Positions 3,219 through 7,915 of a stretch of DNA of 8,785 nucleotides are shown here, piece by piece. A program made the translations under genes and the position numbers. The stretch is from Thermoproteota archaeon (GTDB taxonomy: Archaea; Korarchaeota; Korarchaeia; Korarchaeales; Korarchaeaceae), in the NCBI GenBank assembly GCA_003661265.1, contig QMVU01000030.1, positions 1-8,785 of the forward strand, given 5' to 3'. Position 1 is the stretch's first letter. Each line of letters begins with the position of its first letter. Below the pieces are notes generated by a model. It saw only the letters and a program-made list of their open reading frames with translations, ran no database searches and had not been told where the DNA came from.

Positions 3219-3722
3219 GTGGACGTGTTCAGGACATCGGAAGGATACATCGCCGTTCTCCCCCTAAGGCTATCGATGCCACTAACTGAGATGCCGAAAA
3301 ACCTTGTCGAAGGAGGAAGGGTTGTCTTCACTAGGCTATCAGCGGTAATTTCCTCAAGACATGCGGCCATAGCAACATATAGGGCTTTGAGGGCCTTTAA
3401 AGAGGGAAAAAACCTGGCTAGAAATCTGGAATTAGAAGTAGCGGTTTGTCTTACCGGAGAGAGACAGATCCATAGGGCGCTAGCTCAAACAGATCCTATA
3501 GGAGCCGATAGATTGGTTTCAATCATAATTTCCCCGCATCCATTGGATTGGGAGGGCGTTGCGAGGAGAATATGTGAAGTCCTGGGGGCCGTGCAAACAT
3601 CAGACTTTTGCTCCGCAGAAGATCTGGCAAGAAAGTTCGGCGTACATGACTTCTCATCGTGCTCTGGGAGATTAGAGTTCCTTATATTGGAGAAGGCAGC
3701 TCTAGTTGAGCTTGAAAGATAG
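3219..3722 (+). CDS. cgi121: KEOPS complex subunit Cgi121
   Basis: This 167-aa protein matches the Cgi121 family. Cgi121 is the KEOPS subunit that contacts Bud32 and helps bind tRNA during N6-threonylcarbamoyladenosine (t6A37) synthesis. The clearest block is ARNLELEVAVCLTGERQIHR at about 67-86, matching the family pattern of a helix running into a strand, a T/A-G-x-RQI turn and a helix. The length is near the usual 150-170 aa, and the beginning and end appear intact. The start is GTG with ribosome-binding site GGTGAT. Its partner kinase Bud32 is encoded in the same window at 6568-7194 on the opposite strand. Prefoldin beta follows after 57 bp. Confidence 0.85.
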   Translation: MDVFRTSEGYIAVLPLRLSMPLTEMPKNLVEGGRVVFTRLSAVISSRHAAIATYRALRAFKEGKNLARNLELEVAVCLTGERQIHRALAQTDPIGADRLVSIIISPHPLDWEGVARRICEVLGAVQTSDFCSAEDLARKFGVHDFSSCSGRLEFLILEKAALVELER

Positions 3723-6560: not shown

Positions 6561-6569
6561 GATCACCTC
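6561..6569 (-). promoter_or_regulatory. Ribosome-binding site fixing the TTG start of rdgB
   Basis: The minus strand reads GAGGTGATC, complementary to the 16S 3' end over nine bases. It overlaps the bud32 TGA and sits two bases before the TTG at 6558. Counted from GGTG, the gap is about four to five bases. This strong match supports TTG initiation. Confidence 0.8.
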
Positions 6570-7194
6570 ATCTCACCTTGTATCTCCCCCTTCTTTCGAT
6601 GGCATGAAGCCTTGAAATGATCTCTTCAGCTCCCTCTCCGAGTTCCTTGCGGTATCCCTCAAGGAACTTCTCTACTATGAAGTCCCTCCTTCTTGGATCT
6701 ATCGCTCCAACGGATTGCTTAAAGACGTGTAAGTCCACAGCCCTATCCTCGCAATCTTCTGAGAACTCAACGAGTCCAAAATCTATCAAGCAAATCCTTT
6801 CTTTGTCCATCAAAATGAAGTTTACTCCAGTTAGGTCGTTGTGAACCAAGCCTGCTTTATGGAGCTTACCTACAATACCTCCCAACCTATTCGAAATTAT
6901 AGCTAGCTCTTCCTCGCTCAGCTCAATTAAAGAATCCCTCAAACTAATGCCCTCAACTTTCTCCATGATGATTTCATAGTCATGAACGTCGAGAACAGAA
7001 GGGCATGGAACTCCAAATTTCTTAGCTCTATGTAAGGCTCTTACTTCCTTTGAAGTTCTCTTCTTCCTGAGAAATACATCCAGCTGAGTGGTCCGGTACT
7101 TCTTCTCTATTCTAACTTTCTTGATGGCTGGGATTCCGAAAAATTCAGTTTCATAGATTTTCGCCTCTGCTCCACTTGCTATTAGCCTTTCCAT
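6568..7194 (-). CDS. bud32: KEOPS complex kinase/ATPase Bud32
   Basis: This 208-aa protein is a small atypical kinase (PRPK family) that supports Kae1 in t6A37 tRNA modification. Visible motifs are the nucleotide loop SGAEAKIY (7-14), probable ATP-contact lysines near KKV (25-27), the RTSKEVRAL helix (46-54), catalytic loop HNDLTGVN (118-125), metal-binding DFGL (138-141) and the basic tail RRGRYKVR typical of Bud32. The catalytic loop differs slightly from the common HGDLTTSN, but the Asp and Asn needed for catalysis remain. It is a stand-alone Bud32, not the Kae1-Bud32 fusion of some archaea; Kae1 is not in the window. The ATG at 7194 overlaps the pcm end by 13 bp and has AGAGGT eight bases upstream. 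Confidence 0.95.
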   Translation of the reverse strand: MERLIASGAEAKIYETEFFGIPAIKKVRIEKKYRTTQLDVFLRKKRTSKEVRALHRAKKFGVPCPSVLDVHDYEIIMEKVEGISLRDSLIELSEEELAIISNRLGGIVGKLHKAGLVHNDLTGVNFILMDKERICLIDFGLVEFSEDCEDRAVDLHVFKQSVGAIDPRRRDFIVEKFLEGYRKELGEGAEEIISRLHAIERRGRYKVR

Positions 7195-7915
7195 CCATAT
7201 CTACCTCTCAGGGGCACAAATGCGACATCTGCTACCTCTCTTACACTGAATTTCTCCTCACCTATCTTATCAGCTACGACAAGTCTCTGGGCAAAGAATA
7301 TCCTGTAGGCAGATCCAACGGGAATTACAATTCTCCCTCCTACCTTCAACTGATCCATCAAGGGCTTCGGAAGAGAGGGAGCTGCTGCTGTTACGAGAAT
7401 CCTGTCAGCCTTGATGTTAAGGGGAAGGCCTGAACTTCCGTCGCAATGAAGGACGCTCACTCTATCCCCGTATCCAGTCTCTATGAGATTTTTCCAGGCT
7501 CTAGCTGCGAGTTCTCTTATTATCTCAGCTGAATACACGTGCCCCCACTTCTCTACAGGCATATCGCTAGGAGCAACTATTTCTGCGATGGTGGCTGCGT
7601 GATATCCGCTTCCAGAGCCGACCTCGAACACTATCATCCCCTCTTTCAACATAAGGAGTTCATTCATCATGAAAACCATGTATCGCCCGGATTCCTTACA
7701 AGGAATCCGTGTGGCGCACTTATGGTCTGACCCTCTCCTATGGGAAGCGGAGTATCTTGATAAGCAAACTCCCTTTGGCTCGGCGGAACGAACCTCTCCC
7801 TTGGAACCCTCATAGCAGATCTCTTTACCGATTCTGATCTGATAATTCCTTGCCTAACTAAACTCTCAACTAACCTAATTCGCCTCAAGGCATATTCCTC
7901 ATCCTTCTCAACCAT
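7182..7915 (-). CDS. pcm: Protein-L-isoaspartate O-methyltransferase, two exons joined across a 29-nt intron
   Basis: Pcm uses S-adenosylmethionine to methylate isoaspartyl residues in aged proteins and start their repair. The gene reads as exon 1 (7915-7711) and exon 2 (7681-7182). Joined, they give 705 nt, or 234 residues plus stop, a normal family length. Exon 1 ends in the conserved LPIGEGQTISAPH (57-69). Exon 2 continues with MVFMMNELL, the SAM-binding loop FEVGSGSGYHAA and ILVTAAAPSLP. Without removal of 7682-7710 the first frame stops at 7667 after 82 residues and lacks the SAM site. The ATG at 7915 has no strong ribosome-binding site and may be leaderless. Exon 2 ends in TAA, overlapping bud32. 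The alternative reading is a pseudogene broken by a 29-bp insertion; the exact bulge-helix-bulge geometry argues against it. Confidence 0.88.
7682..7710 (-). other. Predicted 29-nt archaeal bulge-helix-bulge mRNA intron in pcm
   Basis: On the RNA strand, exon-1 bases CGCC (7716-7713) pair with intron bases GGCG (7687-7684) as a 4-bp central helix. The bulges are A-C^A (7712-7710) and A-U^A (7683-7681). The inner helix is formed by CGGAUUCCU (7709-7701) and AGGAAUCCG (7696-7688), closed by loop UGUA. A short outer helix pairs G7717-C7680, U7718-A7679 and G7719-U7678. This is the canonical target of the archaeal tRNA-splicing endonuclease, which cuts after the second base of each bulge. Those cuts rejoin CCA-CAC-ATG, restoring Pro-His-Met of Pcm. 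A two-base AC repeat at the borders leaves the cut ambiguous by up to two bases, with the same product. Confidence 0.87.
7688..7709. repeat. Inverted repeat with 10-bp arms inside the pcm intron
   Basis: Arms CGGATTCCTT and AAGGAATCCG are perfectly complementary around a 2-bp centre, so the intron is nearly all hairpin. Ten-base arms this close together are unlikely by chance in 8.8 kb. No second copy was noticed in the window, so it does not look like a dispersed element here. Confidence 0.9.

Follow-up and report, generated by a model that had tools for sequence, protein, structure and literature searches.

Protein-L-isoaspartate O-methyltransferase (Pcm) is a repair enzyme for aged protein, and the locus described here raises the question of how one such enzyme could be obtained from a gene whose reading frame breaks within the methyltransferase domain. 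The window, by which we mean the whole stretch of DNA that was analyzed, is the 8,785-nt contig QMVU01000030.1 of Korarchaeota (assembly GCA_003661265.1; source genome coded G000). A preliminary description, made from the letters of the window, had read the break as a bulge-helix-bulge (BHB) intron of the pcm mRNA, and this reading gains support from the relatives, from covariation, and from the genes for the endonuclease EndA and the ligase RtcB found in the genome. We consider it very probable that the 29 nt at 7682–7710 are an archaeal BHB intron of the pcm mRNA, which EndA would cut and RtcB would likely seal.

Interruption of pcm within the PCMT domain

In the list of open reading frames (ORFs), pcm lies on the minus strand and is distributed over two of them, 7915–7667 and 7679–7182; the upstream ORF (7667–7915) has a C-terminal end composed of QTISAPH followed by GFLVRNPGDTWFS, and the downstream ORF (7182–7679) starts with the residues MVFMMNELL. 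The former matches positions 5–60 and the latter positions 61–208 of the Pfam profile PCMT (PF01135), and because the two matches abut at profile positions 60/61, a single PCMT domain is interrupted between neighboring positions. On the minus strand, the letters of the junction read GCGCCAC^ACGGATTCCTTGTAAGGAATCCGGGCGAT^ACATGG. Upon removal of the 29 nt between the carets (7682–7710), the sequence becomes GCG CCA C-AC ATG, encoding SAPH-M, by which both the frame and the conserved His of QTISAPH-M are regained, and the joined Pcm protein aligns without a gap across the joint to 2yxe and 4o29. According to the ORFs and the profile matches, exon 1 (7711–7915, minus strand) consists of 68 codons and the first base (C) of the His codon, whereas exon 2 (7182–7681, minus strand) consists of the last two bases (AC) of that codon, 165 further codons, and a stop. 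The preliminary description had placed pcm out of frame by 29 nt exactly at the ISAPH-M junction, for which the ORFs and the split of the Pfam match give 7682–7710 as exact limits, and its claim that the frame and the conserved residues return when each bulge is cut behind its second base is borne out as well.

Fold of the insert and its flanks

The proposed succession of a 3-nt bulge, a CGCC/GGCG helix, a second 3-nt bulge, and a hairpin is found in full on the minus strand. The 5′ bulge, ACA (7710–7712), would be cut between 7711 and 7710, as predicted from sequence and fold, and the 3′ bulge, AUA (7681–7683), would be cut between 7682 and 7681, as predicted from sequence. Between the bulges stands the central helix, composed of the exon strand CGCC (7713–7716) and the intron strand GGCG (7684–7687). 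The inner hairpin (7688–7709), seen in the fold and in covariation, has a stem of 9 bp, with 7709–7701 pairing with 7696–7688, and a loop of 4 nt; a hypothetical tenth pair leaves a loop of just 2 nt. The outer helix, in which 7717–7719 (5′ strand) pair with 7678–7680 (3′ strand) as G-C, U-A, and G-U, is weak, and across 19 loci its pair 1 is formed in all 19 and its pairs 2 and 3 in 11 each. A strict BHB scan covering the two strands of the window gives five BHB-like sites, the pcm site and four weaker ones, among which only the pcm insert has four G/C central pairs together with a 9-bp inner stem. A group I or group II self-splicing intron was also considered and rejected: the insert has 29 nt, and no Rfam family is matched at the gathering threshold in the window.

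How much such a motif says by itself was estimated by scanning 60 stretches (about 1.05 Mb) of the related genomes G000, G007, and G008 ab initio for ORF-rescuing BHB motifs. The scan yielded 47,963 motifs and 5477 rescues, with no excess in these 60 stretches compared with control cuts displaced by +1 (5616) or −1 (5457). Since the rescue counts are on a par with those of the displaced controls, a BHB motif with an ORF rescue proves nothing alone; the pcm insert stands above chance because the same site, geometry, and covariation are found in 21 loci.

Inserts at the same site in Korarchaeota and Asgard archaea

The pcm gene is present in all 29 korarchaeal genomes, of which seven carry an insert at the exact site (29 nt in G000, 28 in G028, 23 in G006, 23 in G007, 20 in G008, 20 in G004, and 29 in G005) and 22 carry none. 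The insert of the sister genome G028 is unlike that of G000 in sequence, and the letters at the pcm site of QMVZ01000040.1 (isolate B15_G15, L034) are identical to those of G028. With a covariance model built from the seven korarchaeal inserts (R1), the same seven alone were detected in the 29 genomes below an E-value of 1e-11, the next match having an E-value of 0.13. The preliminary description had suggested examining pcm of relatives to see whether the intron is absent or moves; most of the phylum indeed lacks it, and the inserts of the remaining genomes vary in length and sequence but keep to one site instead of moving.

These genomes being assembled from metagenomes, and rtcB of G000 showing a stop as well, the break might alternatively be an assembly error or belong to a decaying pseudogene. 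However, the truncated protein of the N-terminal part is found on five contigs, the longest of 45,357 b, in assemblies that are not necessarily independent; an error in a single assembly is unlikely because of these five contigs and because the 28-nt insert of the sister genome differs in sequence. Furthermore, 21 loci share the site and a covarying fold, both parts of Pcm are conserved as protein, and in the homology survey described below, which contained 250 query ORFs with matches, the only breaks judged real were those in cbf5 and pcm and one codon of rtcB. Error or decay is thus exceedingly improbable.

When R1 was applied to 297 archaeal genomes, one further interrupted pcm was found, that of G139 (E-value of 8.7e-7), with an insert of 32 nt and the central helix CACC/GGTG, a compensated change; a match in G178 (E-value of 0.0034) lies outside pcm and was taken as chance. 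On account of matches to P0193 of Njordarchaeum guaymaensis and P0159 of Jordarchaeales, the phylum of G139 was taken as Asgard. Here the C-terminal part of Pcm was matched in 181 of 227 genomes, and 12 of the best 30 loci, which were examined, are interrupted at the pcm site. A second covariance model, built from eight inserts (R2), detects, at E-values up to 1, all but one (L234) of 11 interrupted loci new to it and none of 40 uninterrupted loci. A third, built from 18 loci including 11 of Asgard (R3), with G601, the second locus of G550, and G468 outside the training set, detects 14 loci in 13 of the 227 Asgard genomes at E-values below 0.01, all at the pcm site and with inserts of 29–32 nt; inspection of eight R3 matches with E-values above 0.1 revealed no interrupted pcm. 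Two different interrupted pcm genes are present in G550, on contigs C132 (L225) and C172 (L273), in an assembly with a contamination of 12%. Among 30 archaeal genomes picked by PCMT E-value from 394, G139 alone has pcm split at this site, although interrupted genes can be hidden in such a selection because it consists of best-scoring matches.

In a protein search with the C-terminal part from G139, at least 37 of the 120 matches listed (of 7471) are short, and at least 35 of these begin exactly at the Met after SAPH. Such proteins, annotated by gene callers as C-terminal parts only, would also fit a pcm that is truly split into two polypeptides, the second being re-initiated at the ATG past the insert and then assembling with the first, and ATG does open exon 2 in most loci. 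Nevertheless, G006 has ATT at the start position, and the Met is conserved in insert-free pcm too and therefore has nothing special as a start; the cut interrupts a conserved motif, and neither the fold nor the constraint on the exon codons described below is explained by two polypeptides. We therefore regard a split gene as very improbable. When the 82-residue N-terminal part was used as the query, at least 13 of the 120 matches listed, one of them the window's own, ended in QT[IV]SAPHG, bare or followed by a short tail, and at least 9 of those at least 13 bear, at the protein level, G[DEG]TW as a read-through of the 3′ splice region. The N-terminal parts P0009, P0011, P0012, P0013, and P0030, which end in QT[IV]SAPHG and are rather unlike the sequence of the window, are, judging from the proteins, probably further insert carriers.

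Rules common to the 21 loci

In all 21 interrupted loci (7 korarchaeal and 14 Asgard), the four pairs of the central helix are formed, and two 3-nt bulges are placed on opposite strands with the 4-bp helix between them, which is the arrangement characteristic of an EndA-type BHB intron. A central G-C pair is replaced by A-U in two loci, the helix being kept by compensatory change. The inserts have 20–32 nt, 19 of them in numbers that are not multiples of three, and the two with lengths divisible by three (L230 and L265) hold an in-frame stop. Exon 1 ends with C and exon 2 starts with AC or AT, so that the predicted cut yields His in 21 of 21 loci. Because the first intron bases differ in G468, G464, and G601, the unspliced codon is Arg or Leu there, and only the predicted splice gives His.

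A hairpin situated between two coding parts in different frames might instead be bypassed by the ribosomes (programmed translational bypassing, as in T4 gene 60), with no splicing of the mRNA. Bypassing requires matching take-off and landing codons, however, and these are identical in only 4 of the 21 loci; His stands at the landing position in 9 of the 21 and Arg or Leu at the take-off position in 3, as against His in all 21 by the splice rule. Bypassing also gives no reason for the conservation of the central helix on its exon strand, and we consider it highly unlikely.

In keeping with a BHB intron, the helices covary across the korarchaeal and Asgard inserts, which answers another check proposed in the preliminary description. 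In a model-fitted alignment of 18 loci, 10 of 13 pairs have changed on both sides, and 97.3% of cells are paired in register, compared with 33.5–47.8% when the alignment is slid, figures in which shared ancestry is ignored. An alignment of 19 loci whose only anchors are the exon boundaries agrees for inner pairs 1–9. In L234, inner pair 2 is mismatched. The hairpins thus differ in sequence among the loci, yet covary. The exon side is constrained at the level of codons: in 19 of 19 loci, exon 1 has GCG or GCA (Ala) followed by CCA (Pro), and a later addition of two loci contributed one CCA and, in G601, one CCT. CCA is accordingly used for this Pro in 20 of 21 interrupted loci, as opposed to 2 of 40 insert-free genes, shared ancestry being ignored in both counts.

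Splicing machinery and other interrupted genes

An EndA with two domains in one ORF is encoded in 28 of the 29 korarchaeal genomes, including G000, and RtcB in 27 of the 29; in G005, an insert carrier with a genome 66% complete, neither was found. Korarchaeota have α4 or α2 EndA, according to the accessible part of PMC4090602. The rtcB gene of G000 (L080; contig C16, minus strand, around position 1111) contains an in-frame TGA in LGT*GGGNHF (asterisk, stop), for which the sister genome G028 has TTG, and the TGA may be either a sequencing error or a real change. In G011, G012, G015, G020, G021, and G022, the RtcB matches are split at profile positions 45–50 inside a single reading frame that stays open over about 950 aa, looking as if an intein had been inserted. 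Nine of the 31 tRNA genes listed for G000 hold introns of 16–52 nt, so that BHB splicing is expected to run in this organism.

The cbf5 gene is interrupted at GH[CSAL]GTL^DP in 9 of 13 korarchaeal loci examined (L052, L053, L071, L072, L073, L074, L076, L077, and L078), with three intact and one cut by a contig end. The interrupted genes are those of G028, G006, G007, G008, G004, and G005, in which the pcm insert is present, and of the outgroup G001–G003, in which it is absent; no cbf5 was found for G000. In six of the nine, the Cbf5 protein is restored by a strict BHB, and no such motif was detected at the cbf5 insert of G008, G001, and G003. The occurrence of a cbf5-type intron in the same lineages was counted in favor of the pcm intron. 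The cbf5 gene of K. cryptofilum is listed as intron-free in the accessible part of PMC2738675.

In the homology survey, 390 kb of G009, a genome without the insert, supplied 411 ORFs, which were compared with the 60 stretches of G000, G007, and G008, giving 250 queries with matches and 342 query-stretch pairs above 80 bits. Frame changes were observed in cbf5 of G008 and pcm of G007, and a stop inside the alignment in 10 pairs above 80 bits, including cbf5 of G007 and rtcB of G000. The other eight stop-bearing pairs were set aside by eye, five having the stop in the last 7% of the query and q357 just before an internal Met, and q210 and q349 being low-scoring and taken for wrong-frame ORFs. 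As the sample was partial, other mRNA introns may exist.

Discussion

The reading of the insert as a BHB intron draws on the broken frame, the canonical fold, the exact recovery of both frame and His, the recurrence in 21 loci, the covariation, and the exon-codon constraint. The points against it are the weak outer helix, the lack of an excess over controls in the scan, the TGA in rtcB, and the missing EndA and RtcB in G005. In the predicted mechanism, which we infer from sequence comparison, EndA, the tRNA-splicing endonuclease, would cut the pcm mRNA at both bulges, RtcB would likely seal the exons, and the spliced message would then be translated into one full-length isoaspartate methyltransferase. 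An unspliced message would give the 82-residue N-terminal fragment.

The pcm insert is comparable with the cbf5 pre-mRNA intron of Desulfurococcales and Sulfolobales, likewise a short BHB intron inside a protein-coding region. As described in the accessible part of PMC2738675, cbf5 introns have 16–44 bp, are predicted to be cut between the second and third bulge bases, and have been lost in some lineages, and most of their motifs are unconventional, needing a hetero-oligomeric EndA. The motif of pcm is canonical, in contrast to those mostly unconventional ones, and the host gene differs; the pcm insert would work like the cbf5 intron, yet is not that intron. Beside these cbf5 introns, the tRNA introns of G000, and the 20 other pcm inserts, a length of 29 nt is not very small, contrary to the preliminary description. 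Another mRNA BHB intron, that of HVO_1309 in Haloferax volcanii, is EndA-processed and confirmed in vitro, according to the accessible part of PMC7714728, and lies in the 5′ UTR, whereas the pcm insert lies inside the coding region. Archaeal tRNA BHB introns have the same motif and size range as the pcm insert, in which, unlike in tRNA introns, the host RNA is an mRNA and the exon strand of the helix is built of protein codons. A further archaeal BHB intron, in another gene and lineage, is that in the XPD-helicase mRNA of Thermoproteales, which was not found in the literature searched.

That few archaeal mRNA introns are described, notably in cbf5, as the preliminary description stated, agrees with the accessible parts of two papers: archaeal pre-mRNA introns are confined to Cbf5 homologs in PMC4810243 (2016), and, besides its own 5′-UTR case, PMC7714728 (2020) gives crenarchaeotal cbf5 as the one archaeal mRNA BHB intron reported. 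Very many tRNA introns in Asgard genomes are described in the accessible part of PMC11291895, and PMC6125680 and PMC12558985, as far as their accessible parts go, match on Asgard, intron, and bulge-helix-bulge. No report of a pcm intron was found in the literature searched, the coverage of which leaves most subscription papers outside. As a host gene for this known type of intron, pcm is new, and the spread of the insert over two phyla is surprising.

On a tree of pcm from the 29 Korarchaeota, three changes are needed to account for the distribution of the insert, for example, one gain and two losses. On a pcm tree of 67 rows, several outside rows of which are very long-branched, six changes are needed, at least three being forced by well-supported branches. 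Since the pcm of G601 and the second copy of G550 group with korarchaeal pcm, transfer is possible; the insert may have had one old gain followed by losses, or it may have spread by transfer. As for the gene surroundings, DUF371 neighbors pcm at 12 of the 16 loci inspected, with cases in both phyla. The window also encodes a CGI-121-like protein (3219–3722, plus strand) and a Bud32-like RIO-family kinase (6568–7194, minus strand), proteins of kinds known to be subunits of KEOPS.

It is possible, though doubtful, that the pcm intron represents a second conserved archaeal mRNA intron, occupying one site in korarchaeal and Asgard archaea (including Njordarchaeum and Jordarchaeales), which predates the split of the phyla and persists by tying the production of Pcm to the tRNA-splicing machinery. 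If this is true, EndA-dependent splicing of mRNA would be an ancient feature of the archaeal side that gave rise to eukaryotes. The insert would explain the short, C-terminal-only Pcm proteins present in databases from these lineages. With a second host gene in two phyla, Asgard included, archaeal mRNA splicing would become a comparative subject, in which gain, loss, transfer, exon-codon constraint, and possible regulation become testable.
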